From: Rhodothermales bacterium | GTDB taxonomy: Bacteria > Bacteroidota > Rhodothermia > Rhodothermales > Bin80 | Length of the DNA: 64,000 bases | Reading direction: 5' to 3' | Assembly: GCA_958296045.1 (NCBI GenBank) | Contig: CATQHT010000003.1 | Coordinates: forward strand, 1,685,246 to 1,749,245 | Shown: positions 37,279 through 46,576 of the stretch, one piece after another | Layout: every line of letters starts with the position of its first letter | Numbering within the stretch: the stretch's first letter is position 1 | Made by a program: the position numbers and the translations under genes | Notes under the pieces: generated by a model | What the model was told of the DNA's origin: nothing | Database searches by the model: none | Seen by the model: the letters and a program-made list of their open reading frames with translations, nothing else

Positions 37279-37553
37279 CCGAGCCGTAGCAATCGGGCCT
37301 GCAGTCGCCGGTTTGTTCTTTGACTTGCTGATTGTCTGCCAATGCGACCGCCTCGTTTGCGCATTGGGTATCGCCTTAACTGGTCTCACGCATTCGGGTG
37401 TTTCCGGGAGCGGTTGTTTTGTGGTCGGTGGTCCTGAATCGGGTGGTCAAGGGGCTGCGGATTGTCGGTCGGATGGTCCGAAAAGAGTCAGGAGGTGCCG
37501 TTTGTTGCCCGGGAGGTAGAGCCCTTCTCGTTTCACGCGCGCATAGTGCAAGA

Positions 37554-37604
37554 GAAATTCGTAACCTCGGCCCTTTTTGGGACTACCATAGGGTTACGAA
37601 TTTC
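37554..37604. repeat. Leader palindrome 2 (45 bp core, 13-bp arms)
   Basis: The arms GAAATTCGTAACC and GGTTACGAATTTC are perfect inverted repeats of 13 bp. The core from ATTCGTAACC to GGTTACGAAT (37557-37601) is exactly 45 bp, like the first site. Inside, CCC-TTTTT-GGG could add a second small stem. Confidence 0.8.
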
Positions 37605-37773
37605 ACGTACGCCAAGCTGACGCCATATCTGACGGGAGGTAAGTGCCCAATTTCCTTGCACCTTGTTAGTTTTGAGATGGGAAAAGGCTTATATTGGCGA
37701 TCATGGTGCTTGCTACCGGCCCTTTGAGCCTTCATAACGGCGTTGCGATTGCTTTCGAGGCTCACAAGGCGCC

Positions 37774-38850
37774 CCGCAACGCCTGCCCCGCTCATTAGGG
37801 GATTGAAACTTCTCCTCGCACCAGGCCTGCAGTGCCAGGATCTTATCATTTGGGACCGCAACGCCTGCCCCGCTCATTAGGGGATTGAAACCCCGTACAG
37901 CCATAGGGAAGACCGGGCGCGTAGCGGCCCTTGTGTTCCCGCAACGCCTGCCCCGCTCATTAGGGGATTGAAACTCCTCATCGTCCATCAGTGCCACCTC
38001 CTGTGCATTGAGCCGCAACGCCTGCCCCGCTCATTAGGGGATTGAAACGGGCGAAAGACTGCTACTCCTGAGATCTCTGCTTTCTGATCATCCGCAACGC
38101 CTGCCCCGCTCATTAGGGGATTGAAACCTCACTTTCTTACCGGGGCGAAACAACGCAACCCCAGATATCCCGCAACGCCTGCCCCGCTCATTAGGGGATT
38201 GAAACCTCGTGCCATTCCGTCTGAAGCACCTCAAGGCGCTCCTGCGGTCCCGCAACGCCTGCCCCGCTCATTAGGGGATTGAAACATTGCGTTTCTTCCT
38301 GCTTCGTAGCTTGGTGCATCAAGTGCGTAAGCCCGCAACGCCTGCCCCGCTCATTAGGGGATTGAAACACCTGGGTGCCGAGATCCCCAGTGGGCTGGTT
38401 GATCAGGCCAGTGGTCCCGCAACGCCTGCCCCGCTCATTAGGGGATTGAAACTCAATGCTATACTTGCTCCTGAAGATGCTCACCCGAGCATTGTCTCCC
38501 CGCAACGCCTGCCCCGCTCATTAGGGGATTGAAACGTGGCGGAGGATCGGTCGCGCCGCGACGAGGTGACGGTGATGCTGGCCCGCAACGCCTGCCCCGC
38601 TCATTAGGGGATTGAAACTTGACGCCCAGCGCCCGCCGCCATGCAGCGATGAGCCTGGCCCCCGCAACGCCTGCCCCGCTCATTAGGGGATTGAAACTTG
38701 TCAAGGTCAATGCTGAACTCGCTGAGGAAGATGCTTGCCCGCAACGCCTGCCCCGCTCATTAGGGGATTGAAACTCATGATGACCTCCTTTTTCAACGTG
38801 AAACTACCCCGGCCCCGCAACGCCTGCCCCGCTCATTAGGGGATTGAAAC
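37774..38850 (+). CRISPR. Type III-B CRISPR array, 14 repeats and 13 spacers
   Basis: Fourteen identical 36-bp repeats begin CCGCAACGCCTGCCCC and end TAGGGGATTGAAAC. They start at 37774, 37856, 37939, 38013, 38092, 38170, 38250, 38333, 38417, 38500, 38583, 38662, 38739 and 38815. In most cases a C precedes, so the functional unit may be 37 bp with a variable first base. The repeat holds a CCCC/GGGG stem with an eight-base loop, and ends in ATTGAAAC, the usual 8-nt crRNA 5' tag. That sets transcription left to right from the leader. Spacers are 38-48 nt, typical of type III. A 15th repeat with one mismatch lies 1.27 kb further on. Confidence 0.98.
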
Positions 38851-38852
38851 CA

Positions 38853-38993
38853 AAGCCTATCGTATCCTTTGAAGTCTCCGACAGACCGACCCAAGACACT
38901 CGCAAAAAGCTGGCCAGCGAAGCATCCAACAACCACAACATGGAGGAAGCTATATGCCCAATGTGTGGAAACCAGTTCCTCATCTGGCGTTAA
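38853..38993 (+). pseudogene. 3' end of a phage-like gene, cut at the 14th CRISPR repeat
   Basis: An open frame runs out of the last array repeat and encodes a 46-residue C-terminus: KPIVSFEVSDRP and, near the end, a zinc-knuckle-like CPMCGNQF, then a TAA at 38991. It overlaps the start of the methyltransferase gene by 40 bp, as compact phage genes do. No start exists, so it is the truncated tail of a gene whose 5' part is absent. The function is unknown. Confidence 0.6.
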
Positions 38994-39874
38994 GCCCCGA
39001 TGAGATTCAACGCATCACCGAAACTGTCGCACGACTCGAACACCCTGACATAGCACCCAGGGTGTTCGCCAGGACCATGCCAGACGCACCACACTGGTAT
39101 ACCCTGGTGAGGCATTGGGACGACCCAGCACTATTCCGCGACACCGTCGAAGTCATCCAGCAATACGGCGAACCTGTCTACTACAAACGAGGCCGCTATA
39201 CATCGCTGATCGCTAATGGCTACCGCTACTGGACCATGGGAGCAAGCCCCGCATCAACCATCCTCATCAACGTCTGCCCCCACATCTATAGCACCGCGTA
39301 CGACGCCGTAGCAGAGAATTACGACCACGTCTACCACAAACCACACCACCAAGAAGGAGACGTCTGGATCAAAGATCAGCTGCCCGACCTCAAAGACAAA
39401 CGTGTGCTCGACATAGGATGCGGCACCGGATACCTGTTCGACCTCTTCACGTCACTACGCATTGGCAATGGCGCCGTGCACGGCTACCCTTTCAGGAAAC
39501 CGGAACAGTACACCGGTATCGACCCGAGCTATGCCATGCTCAAGCAGTTCGCTGGCAAGTACGGGTACTACACGGATCGCACCATCAACTGCTCTATCGG
39601 GCACTACTACCGAACAGATAACCTGAAGTACGACGTTATCCTAGGACTCTGGGGCGCTGGATCCTACATAACCGAGACAGACCTCATCAAGATCAGGCTG
39701 ATAGCCAAAGAAGACGCGGACTTCATCGTCACCGCCTTCAAGAAGACAAATAAACCTCATGTGCTTGGCTTCACCGAACCCTACGTTGCTGGCGGACTGT
39801 ACAACTTGCCGCCCACACGCGAAATTGGTACGCACCTGTTCTACAAGATGACGCTCCAGGATGTCCAAGATTAG
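38954..39874 (+). CDS. Phage-like SAM-dependent methyltransferase
   Basis: This 306-residue protein has an AdoMet-binding motif VLDIGCGTGYLFDLF and a following acidic strand (QYTGIDPSYAMLKQF). The N-terminal 110 residues are not recognised. It lacks an NPPY/DPPY motif, so a DNA adenine specificity is not supported, and the substrate is unknown. Codons ending in C (AAC, TAC, ACC, ATC) dominate, unlike the neighbouring host and cas genes. It lies entirely between two CRISPR repeats, and its stop overlaps the next gene's start by 14 bp, a phage-like arrangement. Confidence 0.85.
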   Translation: MPNVWKPVPHLALSPDEIQRITETVARLEHPDIAPRVFARTMPDAPHWYTLVRHWDDPALFRDTVEVIQQYGEPVYYKRGRYTSLIANGYRYWTMGASPASTILINVCPHIYSTAYDAVAENYDHVYHKPHHQEGDVWIKDQLPDLKDKRVLDIGCGTGYLFDLFTSLRIGNGAVHGYPFRKPEQYTGIDPSYAMLKQFAGKYGYYTDRTINCSIGHYYRTDNLKYDVILGLWGAGSYITETDLIKIRLIAKEDADFIVTAFKKTNKPHVLGFTEPYVAGGLYNLPPTREIGTHLFYKMTLQDVQD

Positions 39875-40219
39875 GTACGTCTACACGAACAACACCGTCT
39901 CAGAGGCCGCCATCAAACGCATTAACTGGCTCGTAGGCGAGTTTAGCTACATGCCCACCGTAGGATTCAGCGGAGGCAAAGACTCTACCATCCTCCTGGA
40001 AATGGCATGCATGATAGCCAAGGAACGAGGTCTGCCACCCGTCAAAGCCGTGTTCCTGGATCAAGGGGTTGAAGCAACCTCCAACATCGAGTTCATGCGC
40101 ACCATCATACAACGACCCGCAACGCCTGCCCCGCTCAATAGGGGATTGAAACTATGTGGAAGCCCACGGCATTGACTGGTGTACGCGCTATACCCGCAGT
40201 GCGTATTCCGACGTGATTA
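39861..40219 (+). pseudogene. PAPS-reductase-like gene fragment interrupted by a CRISPR repeat
   Basis: The first 85 codons encode an adenine-nucleotide alpha-hydrolase of the PAPS reductase/ATP-PPase type: the P-loop is TVGFSGGKDSTILLEMA, followed by VKAVFLDQGVEATSNIEFMR. At 40116 a 37-bp CRISPR repeat begins. If exactly those 37 bases are skipped, the same frame continues as YVEAHGIDWCTRYTRSAYSD until an IS21-type end at about 40220. The joined segment (IIQR then YVEAHGIDW) reads as one helix. The rest of the gene is missing. Without skipping, translation stops shortly after the repeat (TGA at 40173). PAPS-reductase-like genes beside methyltransferases are common in phages. Confidence 0.7.
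40116..40152 (+). CRISPR. Isolated 15th CRISPR repeat with one mismatch
   Basis: The sequence matches the array repeat (with the preceding C, 37 bp) except for one T-to-A change in the loop (CTCAATAGGGG instead of CTCATTAGGGG). It lies 1,265 bp beyond the 14th repeat, in the same orientation. Terminal repeats at the leader-distal end are often degenerate, so this may be the original last repeat of the array. Confidence 0.92.
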
Positions 40220-40275
40220 TGCACCCAATCTGGGGGAAATTGAACACCCAATCCGAGGCAAATGTGAACGCGTGA
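40220..40275. repeat. IS21-family-type element end (three imperfect repeats)
   Basis: The stretch begins TGCACCCAATCTGGG and contains related units (CACCCAATC, then TGAACACCCAATCCGAGG, then GTGATTCGAGGCA). Repeats of this kind, with TGCA at the tip, are typical of IS21-family ends. No IS21 gene follows, so only an end is left. It abruptly terminates the PAPS-reductase-like sequence. Confidence 0.5.
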
Positions 40276-40696
40276 TTCGAGGCAGCCTGGGCATGACCTT
40301 GAGCGCACGCAACTGACCGTCCAGAGCGCATGATCCCCGGACTGCGACCAAGGCGTAGCCAGATCAGCGGAGGATCTGTAACCTGATCATGCAGCTTGAG
40401 CAACAGGCGGAGCTGAGAGAATCGCTGATGAACGCCAAGAGTTTGCTGCAGGGGGCAGCTACCGTCCAATAGTTCATCGGCCACGGACAAAGTCCGACTC
40501 TCCGCAAGGAGCGGATTGTGCTGGAGCCGCGAGTTCCCGTACCAGAAGATCCGCCCAATTCGGATCCACAAACCTCCAAGATGCACTATTTCTCGTACTG
40601 ACTTTTCTGGTCATGTTGTGCAATATCGTGTCCGCATTCCGTACTTTGCAGTGGATGAATTGACGGTGGCAACTGTCGTGCAAAAAGGAAGAATAA
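40276..40696. other. Mobile-element debris without a gene
   Basis: These 421 bases before the restriction-modification gene hold only short frames on both strands with no recognisable domain. They are probably the remains of the element whose end lies at 40220. Confidence 0.4.
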
Positions 40697-42220
40697 ATGG
40701 CTGATCTGTCCTATTCCTATCGCAATGAGATCCAGTCCAAGCTAGCATCAGGCGTGGCGACTGAGCACACGTATAGACCCACGCTACAAAACTTGCTGCA
40801 GGAGCTGGCGGGCAATGCAATCGCCATCCTGAACGAAGCTCAGCAGGTGAGGCACAACGCGCCAGATTTTACAATTCGGCAGGGTGGCGTGCCCATCGGC
40901 TACATCGAGTGCAAGGACCTAGACGCAGACTTGGACAGCATTGAGCGGTCCATTCAGCTGCGGCGCTACCGCAAGGCATTCCATAATCTAATTCTCACGG
41001 ACTACCTAGAATTCCGGTGGTACGTACACGGAACACGCAGAGCACAGCTGCGACTCGGCATTAAGCAAGGCTCCCGCATCAGGCGCCATAGAAGCCATCT
41101 GTCGGCGGCTACGTTCTTTAAGGGCTTCTTTCGATCGGCTACAGTTGAGATCAATACGCCTGCCGAACTGGCGACTCAAATGGCGGCTAAGGCACAACTC
41201 ATCCGGGAGACGATGGTCAGTATTATGGCGGAAGAATCGGCAACGACACAGGGCCCATTCAGAGCAATGTGTATGAAGCTTCAGGAGGAGCTGATTCCAG
41301 ACCTTCAAGACGCTGATTTCGCCGACATCTATGCTCAGTCCGCGGCGTACGGTTTGTTCGCGGCAAGATGCCTTACGTACGGAGATGGGCGCAGCGTGTT
41401 TTCGCGAGAGCATGCTCTTGGCGTTCCTACCACCCCCCTGCTTCACCACCTGTTCAGCGGGATCGTAGGGCCCTTCGCTGATCCGCGGCTGACCTGGATT
41501 GTTGACGACTTGGTGCAGCTGCTCGCAGGAGAGCATTTTGGGGATTTCCTAAGGGATTTCACCGCCGAAGGCATAGGCAAGGACCCCGTCGTTCATTTCT
41601 ACGAGCTTTTTCTTGGAGAGTATGACCCCCAGCTACGCGTGCAACGAGGCGTCTTCTACACCCCCAGACCGGTGGTGCAGTACATCGTTCGGAGCATCGA
41701 TTCATTACTGAAGACCAAACTGGCATTACCGGAAGGCCTTGCTGATCAGCAGACAGTATCGTACAAGCCAGCCGACGAGGAGCAGGTACAGAGCAGCAAG
41801 GTGCTCATCCTTGACCCAGCCACCGGAACGGGTACCTTCTTGAGAGAAGTCATTGTTCACATCCGCACGAACTTGGAATCCCGAGGTCTCGCTGGAGCAT
41901 GGCCCGACTTTGTTCAACGTCATCTGCTCGACAGACTAATCGGATTTGAGTTGCTGGTGACGCCCTACGCGATTTGCCACCTGAAGCTGGCCCTTGAGCT
42001 GGGAAGGCCCCCTTTGCCAGTCGCGTTGAATATTGGACAGCGCTTCCGCGTCTATCTGACCAATACGCTCCTAGAGGCTGCTGGCAAGATCACCGGCATT
42101 TTCCCAGCTGACCCGGTGGCGGCGGAGGCTTTGGAGGCGGCCCGAGCCAAGAGCCATGTACGTATCAGGGTGGTTCTGGGCAACCCTCCGTACTCCGTAG
42201 AATCCTTAAACCCGCATAAT
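40697..42220 (+). pseudogene. Single-chain restriction-modification enzyme (type ISP/IIG-like), 5' half
   Basis: This first half of a combined nuclease-methyltransferase has 508 codons of genuine sequence. The N-terminal nuclease-like part has PDFTIRQGGVPIGYIECKDL, a D...E-x-K pattern of the Mrr/PD-(D/E)XK type. A helical coupler follows, then the methyltransferase core with motif I LILDPATGTGTFLREV and the adenine-N6 motif VVLGNPPYSVE. Right after NPPYSVESLNPHN the frame enters an IS1380-like element and stops eight codons later. The rest of the gene resumes at about 44876. The intact protein would be about 1,070 residues. It has no helicase domain. Confidence 0.85.
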
Positions 42221-42241
42221 TCACGTCTGAGATTTGCATAA

Positions 42242-43018
42242 AACAGCAGCAAAGTATTGCATGGATACTTTGTTACAATGCATGTTATCCTGAGTGCGCC
42301 GCTTTTCAGTTAGGAAGGGGTTTATATGGTCCCATATTCATGAAGACAGGGTCTTTCGCCTATAGATCTACAACGGATGGCCTCTGAACAAGGGTTTCGG
42401 GTGTTTCTACGCGCCGTTTGATGGCATTGAGACCATTGTATAAACATTCTTTATACGCGTTTTGAGGCAGTTGGCGGGATAGTACGAATTCACCCGGTGG
42501 GTGAACGAGACGTGGCCCATTTTGGGCCCTTTTGCCCGTCCTGGCAGGTATCCACTTTCTGGGCAGAGCCGGGGATTTCTGCGCCTGGGCGAGCTTGAGA
42601 GGAGCAGCAAGAGGCAGGCGGACCGGTCTGCTGGGCGGCGGACACTTTCATGGCCGATTCGGCATTGCGAGTGCGGCCTGTATCGGTCGCAGGCACGGCA
42701 CTGGGTGCAGGATTGTCATGGGCTGTCTGCGCCGGGCCGGGAGCGCCGTGCCAGGGTTATGGACCCTCGCAGCGATGGCCGAAGCGCCGCGGACCGTGGC
42801 ACGCGAAGCGGCATTACGTACGATCCTGACGTCAGACTTAACTCTCACGCAAACCATCAGTGCCTTTGGACTGTGGCATAGTTGCCGCTTATAGGACGTC
42901 GCAGCGGCCAAGAGGCAGGGAGATCCCTTACCGCTGGGCGGGCTTGCGCACAACAAGCACGAGCGCGTCACGGTGCCTGAAGCACCGCTACACGTACCAT
43001 CCATGATCCAGTGAGCCC
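42242..43018. other. Left part of the IS1380-like block, no convincing gene
   Basis: Several GC-rich overlapping frames of up to 126 codons exist on both strands, but none has family features. A small hairpin lies at 42489-42505 (TTCACCC, three-base loop, GGGTGAA). Its outer sequence TTCAC resembles the element tip, so a second element end is possible. Confidence 0.4.
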
Positions 43019-44635
43019 ATGTCCGCATCCAACACGTTGAAAACGTTCGCGTCGCACAACCGCTCGGTTAAGGTGAGTTTTGATAAGCCCGATCAGGTGA
43101 CGTCCGATGCGGGCGCCCTTATTGGTCGTCGCCTGCTGGACTTGACGGGCTTGATTTCGATGCTGATGAAGGGCTTGGTGGACTCCCGCGACAAGCGCCG
43201 TGTCCGGCACTCGCTGCCTGAGCTGCTGCAGCAGGTGCTGCTGTCGTTCATGCAGGGATGGGATCGTCTGCGCTCAGCGGAAGACTTAAAGAACGACCCC
43301 GCCTTCCGCGTGGCCTGCCGTGATCAGCGTGGTGCGAAGGTGTTAGAGCCCGAACACCGCTTAGCTTCGCAGCCGACGCTGTCACGCACGATTGACCGGC
43401 TCTGTGAAGAGCCCAACCTCCAGCATCTGGCCGATACGGTCACCCGGCTGGGAATGGAGACGATATACACCCGCAACGCAGGTTAGCGCGTGCCGGAGCT
43501 GGTCATCGACGTGGATAGCTATCCCGTAGAAGTGTACGGGAAGCAGGAAGGCAGCGAATATAATGCTCACTATAGGCACAGGATATATCTGCCTATGGTG
43601 GCCACATGCGGGCCCACCGGGGATGTGCTGGGAGCAGAACTGCGTCCTGGCGCTATGAATGACGCAAGAGATAGCCATAAATTCATCCACAAGATTGCGA
43701 AAGCAGGGCAAAACCACGTCGCCGAACGGATTATCGTGCGTGCCGACGCGGGCTTCAACAGCCCCATCACGTACGAGCGCCTCGAAGACGATGGCATCGA
43801 CTACGTTATGCACCTGAAAAAGAACAAGAAACTGAAAACGTTGATGGAGAAGACCGTGGCCAAATACGGCGGATCACCTACGCACTGCATAGAGCTGACC
43901 TATAAAGCGGAGTCTTGGAACGAGGCCCGGCGCGTGGTGATGGTGCCCAAGACGTACTCCAAGGCCGAGCCGGAATACTACTTTCTGCTCACGTCCTTGT
44001 CAAAGAAAGAGTGCAATGCCCAGAGCTTGGCTAACTTCTACCGGATGCGAGGCAAAGCGGAAGCACACCACGCAGAGATCAAATACGCTTCCTGTATGCT
44101 GTCCTCGGCGGCGCGCCCCAACATGTTCGAGAAAGTGGTCAAGCAATCACTCGGAGACGAGAGCGACAGCAAGACCCAAGACGAGAAGGCTACCAAGACG
44201 GTGCGCCCTCAGAATGCGGTACGCTTGCTACTGAATGTGATGGCCTATCAACTGATCCACATCGGGCGCTGCCAAATGATCGCCCCCGACTACTTGGCTC
44301 CCAGAAACTGGCCCCTGGGACTACCGACCGCCACAGAACCCCCACCAACAGACGTCGGTCCGCCGGCAGAGCCAAGTAGCAACGGCACCGCCGAAGCAAA
44401 CACCGAGAAGCACGATAAGCAGATGAAGCCTGAGCCCGTACACGCGCCGCTCATGCATGTGCGCAGATTCAGGGAGAACGTGCTCAAGGTAGGGGGACGC
44501 CTGACCAGACATGCACGGCGGCTGCACTTCTATCTCGCCGAGTCCGCAAAGAAGCTGTGGGAGACCTTCTGGGAAAACACATGGAAGCTGCGCTGGCAGA
44601 CCCTGTGCTGGCCGAGTCTGCCTAAACGGTGCTAA
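43019..44635 (+). pseudogene. IS1380-family transposase with one in-frame TAG stop
   Basis: Two frames in the same phase (43019-43486 and 43490-44635) are separated only by a TAG at 43484-43486 (context TRNAG-stop-RVPELVIDVDSY). Read through, they give a DDE transposase of about 537 residues. VIDVDSYPVEVYGKQEGSEY contains the first catalytic Asp in the form usual for IS1380. RADAGFNSPITYERLED carries the second, and the C-terminal part has FYRMRGKAEAHHAEIKYA. The C-terminal 90 residues are Pro- and charge-rich and not typical of the core. Confidence 0.82.
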
Positions 44636-44875
44636 GAGGCCACCACCCGGCTTCCTGACCACGTTAACGCACCTTCCCAAGGGCGACCAACCAGAGCCCA
44701 GCGCTAAGCTACGCCCGCACGACATTAATTCGCCCCGCTGAGCGGCAAAAAGACACCCTGAGCGCGCCGCAAACTCGCAAACTCGCTCCACGACTAGGCC
44801 CCATCAACGGGTCATACCCCTGCCTCCAAGGCATTACCCCTCAACGGCCGCCCACGAATTCCAACTAGTGAATAC

Positions 44876-46576
44876 GATGGGTTAAACAAAGGGGGGTGGA
44901 TCACCGGGCTAATTCGCGGTCAGCGAGGAGGCAGGTTCAAGGCGGACTATTATTCCGTGGGAGGTGCCGCTATCGACGAATCTAACACCAAGCCGCTTCA
45001 GGACGACTACGTAAAGTTCATCCGCTATGCCCAATACAAGATAGACGAGGCAGGAGAGGGAGTAGTCGGCTTCGTGACCAACCACGCGTACTTGAGCAAT
45101 CTGACGTTTCGAGGCATGCGGGAGTCGCTATTGGAGTCGTTCAGTGACATTTATATACTGAACTTACACGGTAACTCCAATATTCGTGGCGCCTCTCCAC
45201 ACGGCAATGACAACCTTAGCGGCGCATCCCCAGGCGACGTCAATGACGTGAATGTGTTTGATATCCAACAAGGAGTTGCTATTGGACTATTCGTTAAGCG
45301 GAAGGACACGACGCTAACTCACGGTCGTGTATACTACGCCGAGCTATGGGGAGCCCGTAGTGATAAGTACGACTGGCTAACCAATCACGACAGCAGCTCC
45401 ACGAATTGGGTAGAAGTAAGGGCCGAGGCACCGTGTTACTTTTTTCTCCCGCGCTCAAGTCCTTTTGCAGACGAGTACTACAGATGGCACGCTTTGGGCA
45501 ATAGTGTGCTGTCCGTCCGCAGTACGTCGGTTGTGACATGCAGGAACCGAATCACTATTCACTTCACGCGAGAGGAGCTGATGCGATTCCTGCGCCGCTT
45601 CGTTGACTTGCCGCCCGAGGAGGCGAGAACCCAGCTCAGCATAGGTCGAGACACGCAGAGCTGGAAAGTTGCGCAAGCTCAGCGGTCTATCCGTGAAACT
45701 AGGTTAGCGGCCCATCATGTAAGGCAGATTCTGGTTCGGCCATACGATGTACAATACACCTACTATACGCATAAGTCCAATGGATTTATTTGCCGGCCCC
45801 GCTACGCCGTGATGCAGCACATGGTCCATGGACCCAACCTGGGTCTGATCACGGTGAGGCAGACTGCCAATAGGAATTATAGCCTGGTATTCATTACGGA
45901 TAAGATTTGCACCTATGAATTGATGCTTAATCCGGGAAGAAGTGGTGCCAACATCTTTCCCGTTTACTCCTACCACCGCGACATGGGTCGGCAGTCCAAC
46001 TTTTGCCGCCCCTTCGTCCGCCTTGCGTCCGAGCGCATAGGCCTTGACTGGAATCAGGATGAGCGAGGTGCAAAGGGCTCCTCGTTTGGTACCGAGGACC
46101 TCCTCTACTACGTTTACGCGTGTCTGCACAGCCCAGAATACCGATCACGTTACCATTCGGAGCTGATGACCGACTTTCCCCGCGTGCCTGTGACGGAACG
46201 GGCGGACCTGTTTTGGCGCTTGGTCGACATAGGTGACCGCCTGGCAGATCTGCACCTGATGAGGGCATTCGGCACTGATCTGCCTGGATTTCCTCGGCAA
46301 GGCACATGCACGGTGGACCGCAGGAAATATGTCGATGGTAGGCTGTGGATTAACAGGCACCAGTACTTTGATGGCGTAGACCCAGATGTGTGGGAGTTTG
46401 AGCAGTGTGCCTGGCGGCCTCTTGAAATCTGGCTGCGATCCAGGAAGGGGCGAACCCTCTCATCAGACGACATTATCCATTTCCGCAGGATCCATGCCTC
46501 AGTCTCAGAAACCATGCAGCAGATGCAGCGCATCGACCAGGTGATAAACGAGCACGGCGGATGGCCACTGCAGTGA
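44876..46576 (+). pseudogene. Single-chain restriction-modification enzyme, 3' half
   Basis: The frame resumes after the IS1380-like block (DGLNKGGWITGLIRG) and continues for about 566 codons without interruption. LQDDYVKFIRYAQYKIDEAG and GVVGFVTNHAYLSNLTFRGM are typical of the methyltransferase region after NPPY in type ISP enzymes. The C-terminal part (VRPYDVQYTYYTHKS, and later DLLYYVYACLHSPEYRSRY) matches the target-recognition region. It has no start of its own, so it is presumably not expressed as a functional enzyme. Confidence 0.85.

Follow-up and report, generated by a model that had tools for sequence, protein, structure and literature searches.

A 1,265-nt phage segment bounded by repeats in a type III-B CRISPR array, and candidate counterparts in two other arrays of the same genome

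Introduction

A type III-B CRISPR array (array A) in a Rhodothermales genome (4.78 Mb, 4 contigs) carries a phage segment of kilobase size (block A) between two of its repeats. We analyzed this array within a stretch of DNA of 64,000 nt (the window). We also analyzed two further arrays elsewhere in the genome, beyond this stretch (arrays B and C), and what they contain alters how much the finding counts. The three loci suggest that kb-sized, repeat-bounded foreign segments may be present in up to three arrays of one genome. We favor, at somewhat less than even confidence, the reading that block A is a giant spacer in one spacer position of a type III-B (Cmr) array, that array B holds a second giant spacer and that array C probably holds a third whose distal repeat has been lost, each joined to its array by Cas1-Cas2. 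In the current view, the Cas1-Cas2 ruler sets the length of spacers.

Results

Array A lies in an ordinary type III-B locus

The type III-B CRISPR locus spans ~27.2-40.2 kb of the window (Table 1). Array A is ordinary in its repeat, orientation, leader, cas1-cas2 and Cmr genes, and the named relatives of its Cas1 come from Rhodothermales MAGs, with identities of 80% and 71%. The blastn results show that window 36356-37810 matches C3:2101788-2100334 and that window 37045-37810 matches C2:93455-92690. Because cas1, cas2 and the leader all lie upstream of array A, repeat R15 is leader-distal. The chance expectation for a 22-nt half-repeat, allowing up to 3 mismatches, is 0.00 copies per window. 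In addition, each leader region of arrays A, B and C holds two copies of an inverted repeat of the form ATTCGTAACC...GGTTACGAAT (window 37545-37610, with counterparts in the array B and array C loci, L016 and L017). A single 785-aa ORF at window 32225-34582 matches Cmr6 (residues 119-307) and Cmr1 (residues 328-391), and is a possible Cmr6-Cmr1 fusion.

Table 1. Features of the array A locus and of blocks A and B (positions in the window)
Feature	Position	Strand	Evidence or remark
cas10/cmr2 (TIGR02577), cmr3, RAMP genes, TIGR02710 CARF gene, cas1, cas2	all within ~27.2-40.2 kb		
cas1, intact, 343 aa	35894..36925	+	PF01867 E 1.7e-83; TIGR00287 above cut-off
cas2, 95 aa	36940..37227	+	PF09827 E 1.3e-18; 95 aa aligned to relatives
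Leader region, common to arrays A, B and C of the genome	37228..37772	+	blastn homology
Array A, repeats R1-R14 (37 bp) and 13 ordinary spacers (37-47 nt)	37773..38850	+	
Block A, 1,265-nt phage segment between R14 and R15	38851..40115	+	
Truncated ParB-like/zinc-ribbon phage gene, C-terminal tail (ends CPMCGNQFLIWR*)	38853..38993	+	resembles ParB_N C-termini just 5' of the methyltransferase in L012/L013/L014
Methyltransferase gene, complete, 306 aa	38954..39874	+	weak Methyltransf_23/12; phrog_4752 E 3.4e-07; 30-39% identity to IMG/VR proteins
PAPS-reductase-like phage gene, first 85 codons, cut at R15	39861..40115	+	phrog_2302 E 1.5e-14
Repeat R15	40116..40152	+	array orientation, one mismatch (CTCAATAGG for CTCATTAGG)
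47 unique nt after R15, a spacer-length remnant or original flank	40153..40199	+	without match elsewhere in the genome
End of insertion-element-like sequence	40200..40293	+	repeated at C1:105233, C3:2021548, C2:582912
Block B gene: DUF6804/Ser-Thr kinase, 561 codons			
Block B second gene: 54 codons of a hydrophobic membrane-protein start			on the kinase strand, running into R13

Block A is made of phage-type DNA

A preliminary description of this DNA had reported a phage-like block after R14 that ends at a 15th repeat in array orientation, and our analysis confirms such a block, 1,265 nt long, with one mismatch in the repeat. The gene content then proposed, namely a gene tail, a complete methyltransferase gene and 85 PAPS-reductase-like codons, is supported by homologues and by phage gene order. 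Relatives of the methyltransferase are encoded on six IMG/VR contigs, and a PAPS gene lies downstream in five of them (L010-L013, L015), while a ParB_N protein ending in a CxxC zinc ribbon is found upstream of the methyltransferase in L010, L012, L013 and L014. The gene order ParB-like, methyltransferase, PAPS is therefore present in viral contigs of IMG/VR, and Microbacterium phage Rasputia also has the methyltransferase-PAPS pair. The 85 N-terminal residues of the PAPS-reductase-like gene carry the nucleotide-binding P-loop SGGKDS and the core that follows it (phrog_2302 E 1.5e-14). The truncated tail after R14 (EAICPMCGNQFLIWR*) aligns to the ParB C-terminus of L012 with a score of 47, compared to 20 +/- 4 for shuffled sequences (0/1,000 shuffles). 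The gene order of block A and its homologues in phage contigs thus indicate phage-type DNA, and, judged from its sequence, the block is a contiguous phage segment in order and reading direction, with both outer genes cut. Its GC content is 53.8%, compared to 54.6% for the ordinary spacers and 60.4% for the cas region.

Block A is present in a single copy in the genome, and a search of 58 relatives found no copy. No closer phage relatives of the methyltransferase were found among phage records, the profile scan added no new ones, and no nucleotide-level relative of the source phage was found. A type III guide must be antisense to its target, and a same-sense guide from block A would be unable to pair with phage mRNA, because the phage genes read in the same direction as the array transcript. 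If block A gives any product, it would be the methyltransferase, expressed by read-through from the leader.

The reductase gene ends at R15

The preliminary description had also claimed that the distal repeat sits in frame within the reductase, which would read on as YVEAHGIDW, and the homologues do not agree with this. The closest reductase homologue, on L010, is 51% identical over residues 7-83, and the alignment ends at residue 83 of 85, 6 nt short of R15. Beyond residue 83 the homologues continue with a motif like YDPRVDPYWMQVPLKLLNATS (type DPRVxPYWxQVPxxLFNAxS). The post-repeat peptide (YVEAHGIDW...) shows no match to this motif, and it scores like shuffled peptides against most homologues. 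Its best score is 33, compared to 23 +/- 4 for shuffled peptides (3.4% of shuffles reach 33), and this match falls at a different part of the protein. Adding the peptide raises the scores by 0.4 bits for phrog_2302 (PHROG), 2.6 bits for PAPS_reduct and 3.6 bits for ATP_bind_3 (Pfam), gains that are too small to support a continuation of the reductase. Scanning contigs with the fused (repeat-removed) reductase revealed no closer relatives.

The 40-codon open frame after R15 is unremarkable, and a match to a genomic repeat element begins at position 48 after R15. A reductase continuing beyond R15 is not supported, given the different continuation of the homologues and the end of a repeat element that starts 47 nt later; the gene ends at R15, and the shared frame is a coincidence. 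At the left end of block A, phage likeness begins only at ~38934; the ~84 nt that directly follow R14 keep an open frame but gave no alignment, which leaves the left edge less sharply defined. The earlier statement that both ends of the block cut genes stands for the right end (at most 6 nt from R15), and is less exact for the left.

Arrays B and C also have foreign-looking DNA at their distal ends

The repeat of array A is found at two other loci in the genome, and all three arrays have foreign-looking DNA on the leader-distal side. Array B (C3:2099457-2100371, minus strand) sits after a second cas1-cas2-leader copy, in which cas1 is interrupted, and has 12 repeats, then 2,219 nt (block B), then a degenerate R13 in array orientation. 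R13 has 3 mismatches, two of them near the 3' end; terminal repeats are often mutated or degenerate near the 3' end (PMC8047081). Up to R13, the 54-codon piece of block B has a codon log-likelihood of +6.9 in frame, compared to -8 and -10 in the other frames. For the kinase of block B, matches in the order and in plasmids are limited to domains at ~47% identity, with none in viruses, and no relative of the membrane-protein start turned up in plasmids or among 99 genomes. Block B looks foreign, and a mobile-element source was seen for block A but not for block B, whose left end cannot be tied to a source.

The spacers of array B (L016) include two, spacers 3 and 4, that are identical, consecutive and 41 nt long, which is a spacer-repeat duplication. 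Spacer 5 of array B and a spacer of array A (window 38775-38813) overlap by 22 nt, and on the opposite strand the overlap reads as a ribosome-binding site and start codon (TTGAAAAAGGAGGTCATCATGA). These two spacers may represent two independent samplings of one phage gene start, in antisense.

Array C (C2:92304-92726, minus strand) is preceded by a truncated cas2 and a leader. Its last repeat, R6, directly abuts a tyrosine integrase (PF00589) without its N-terminal ~190 residues (N-terminal half), and the alignable integrase sequence starts within ~7 nt of R6. No distal repeat of array C remains after the integrase, and transposase-like ORFs follow the integrase fragment. L016 (C3:2097201-2100371; cas1-cas2-leader, array B) and L017 (C2:92304-92726; cas2-fragment-leader, array C) are duplicated copies of the window locus, each with its own array, and cas1 and cas2 are interrupted or truncated in these copies.

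Three gene truncations thus lie ~0-7 nt from a repeat boundary: at the right end of A (6 nt or less), at the right end of B (coding up to the border) and at the left end of C (~7 nt or less). By our own estimate (7/40 x 8/40), random breaks in a 40-nt spacer would place A-right and C-left both that close in ~3% of cases. The positions argue against such breaks, though for A and C together only at the few-per-cent level. The distal ends of arrays A and B adjoin insertion-element sequence, which begins 47 nt after R15 and ~19 nt after R13. Further downstream in the window (40697-46576), a type ISP-like restriction-modification gene (HSDR_N and N6_Mtase, then the ISP C-terminal domain) is apparently split by an insertion that carries a DDE transposase at 43490-44635, with related pieces at C3:2078347-2084885.

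Blocks A and B lack insertion-element hallmarks and have no counterpart in the arrays surveyed

No transposase is found in block A or block B. Neither block shows a terminal inverted repeat or target duplication at its ends, where the outer 60 nt share only 5-6 nt words, as in shuffled sequences. Our survey of relatives and of the order covered 61 arrays near cas1, including related Cas1 loci, with 1,667 gaps in all; some loci are one contig counted twice, and among these ~60 arrays and 1,667 gaps no block is comparable to A or B. The large gaps in the survey contain transposase genes (L112, L118, L129) or cas1-cas2 between two arrays (L122, L131), and the others are decayed repeats or unexplained sequence spanning a few hundred bases (L108, L138, L076, L059). 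Nor is a comparable block present in the arrays of those family relatives whose Cas1 is closest. In another genome of the order, a 334-nt gap lies between a degenerate and an intact repeat beside an array (L138:8713-9084), possibly a decayed array.

This genome has longer spacers than seven family relatives, and their length varies more (mean 42.5, sd 3.2 vs mean 39.4, sd 2.1; Levene p 1.6e-4, Mann-Whitney p 2e-6), although the excess is small, relatives L048 and L050 are nearly as variable and the arrays within one genome are not independent samples. Longer and more variable spacers fit a loose ruler. Viewed as spacer units, both blocks have same-orientation repeats on both sides (R14/R15 in A, R12/R13 in B), and block A, with its phage genes and gene order, has a mobile-element origin. 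Their lengths of 1,265 and 2,219 nt lie outside the ruler length of 37-50 nt in this genome.

Discussion

The arrays described here suggest that CRISPR arrays can take up, or copy in, pieces of DNA far larger than thought, either through capture by Cas1-Cas2 or through repair that copies phage DNA. In the giant-spacer reading, linear phage or plasmid DNA would have escaped trimming of its ends to the usual 37-50 nt, and Cas1-Cas2 would have joined the untrimmed DNA at both borders of the leader-proximal repeat, which would have been duplicated as usual. Ordinary spacers would then have been added on the leader side, and the array tail behind the giant unit would have decayed and been truncated by insertion elements. 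We infer from sequence both the joining by Cas1-Cas2 and the failure of the ruler. Several observations count in favor of capture: arrays A and B share one architecture, of which array C shows one half; gene truncations adjoin repeat borders; terminal repeats do not exceed chance; the GC content of block A equals that of the ordinary spacers; the spacers of this genome are long and variable; and the surveyed arrays contain no comparable block. Against capture, the Cas1-Cas2 ruler of a trimmer-integrase sets the insert size to the single nucleotide (PMC10284694), and searches of open-access papers gave no match for kb-sized or aberrant spacers or for phage or plasmid DNA inside arrays. That the adaptation machinery of the lineage takes up kb-sized, gene-bearing DNA as spacers through a relaxed ruler, which would make its arrays a gene-capture site for phage and plasmid fragments, is a broader claim, and we regard it as somewhat doubtful.

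The preliminary description had offered capture of a very long protospacer and recombination between phage DNA and the array as two options, and both remain live, except that the next spacer being the directly adjacent phage sequence fails against the homologues. Recombination could have worked through two adjacent, co-oriented spacers from one phage, 1.2 kb apart, which would serve as ~40-bp homology arms: if the repeat separating them broke, repair would copy in the intervening phage DNA in place of that repeat, with block B formed likewise and array C being one-ended or having lost its far end. Such repair, which we consider rather unlikely and still a serious candidate, predicts the same array anatomy as capture, and it accounts for repeat-bounded ends, contiguous foreign DNA and truncated genes with known recombination. 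Rearrangements of arrays are generally attributed to homologous recombination (PMC8047081), and repeated sampling of one phage does happen here, because spacers of arrays A and B share 22 nt of a protospacer region. However, in each of the two or three arrays the repair would require a neighboring pair of spacers from one phage, with matching orientation and in the right order. No unrecombined pair was seen, no stretch of 12 nt or longer is common to a spacer and a block, and such repair leaves unexplained why this lineage alone shows the pattern. A single crossover at one spacer is ruled out because it would duplicate the spacer at both ends of block A, and the outermost 60 nt at the two ends have no more than a 6-nt word in common.

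The proximity of all three distal ends to insertion elements (in array C, beyond the integrase) could also point to illegitimate insertion or deletion in the decaying distal ends of old arrays, with the repeat-exact ends partly due to luck. The mutated distal repeats, usual for terminal repeats (PMC8047081), and the unplaced left end of block A are consistent with this explanation, but three truncations at repeat borders and the lack of a transposase or target duplication in or at the ends of A and B make it improbable, as does the observation that insertion elements interrupting the arrays of relatives keep their transposases in the gap. Recombination with a phage or plasmid bearing its own copy of the repeat, as a virus-borne mini-array or a single repeat, has precedent in the mini-arrays and standalone repeats of Sulfolobales viruses (PMC6858448). 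It is nevertheless very improbable here: a search for exact matches to the 25-nt core of the repeat found none in any IMG/VR contig, and the published virus arrays are intergenic (PMC6858448), whereas the repeats here abut truncated genes. The absence of this core, together with that of a transposase, terminal inverted repeat or target duplication, also speaks against the earlier suggestion of a mobile element with one repeat. An assembly chimera, likewise proposed earlier, or a binning artefact is conceivable since the database neighbors are metagenome-derived and the genome may be a MAG. Either is highly unlikely, because two other arrays of the genome show foreign-looking DNA joined at repeat boundaries; the pattern occurs at three loci on two contigs, of 2.88 Mb and 0.83 Mb, and 37-bp repeats are short relative to long reads.

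If true, these findings would mean either that failure or circumvention of the ruler is possible in nature, or that array repair involves copying the DNA of remembered phages. Either reading would be a route for whole phage or plasmid genes into the chromosome at the CRISPR locus, downstream of the leader promoter, and both are testable in this lineage and its relatives.

Block A resembles the phage ParB-methyltransferase-PAPS-reductase module (Rogerhendrixvirus Rasputia for the methyltransferase-PAPS pair; L010-L015 in IMG/VR) in gene order, with homologous proteins 30-51% identical, but it holds only 1.27 kb of the module, with both outer genes truncated. Arrays interrupted by insertion sequences (L112, L118, L129) have a kb-sized gap within the array, as in A and B, yet their gap holds a transposase, and the repeat is split in L112 and L118, whereas both repeats are whole around blocks A and B, which have no transposase, terminal inverted repeat or target duplication. 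Virus-borne mini-CRISPR arrays (PMC6858448) likewise place viral DNA beside host-type repeats; here, no leader or array was found on a virus contig, and the repeats cut genes rather than lying between them. In an ordinary type III-B array built by Cas1-Cas2 acquisition, foreign DNA also lies between two repeats, as in array A, but its spacers are 37-50 nt long, while the inserts described here are 1,265 or 2,219 nt with complete genes, and the phage genes of block A run in the sense direction.
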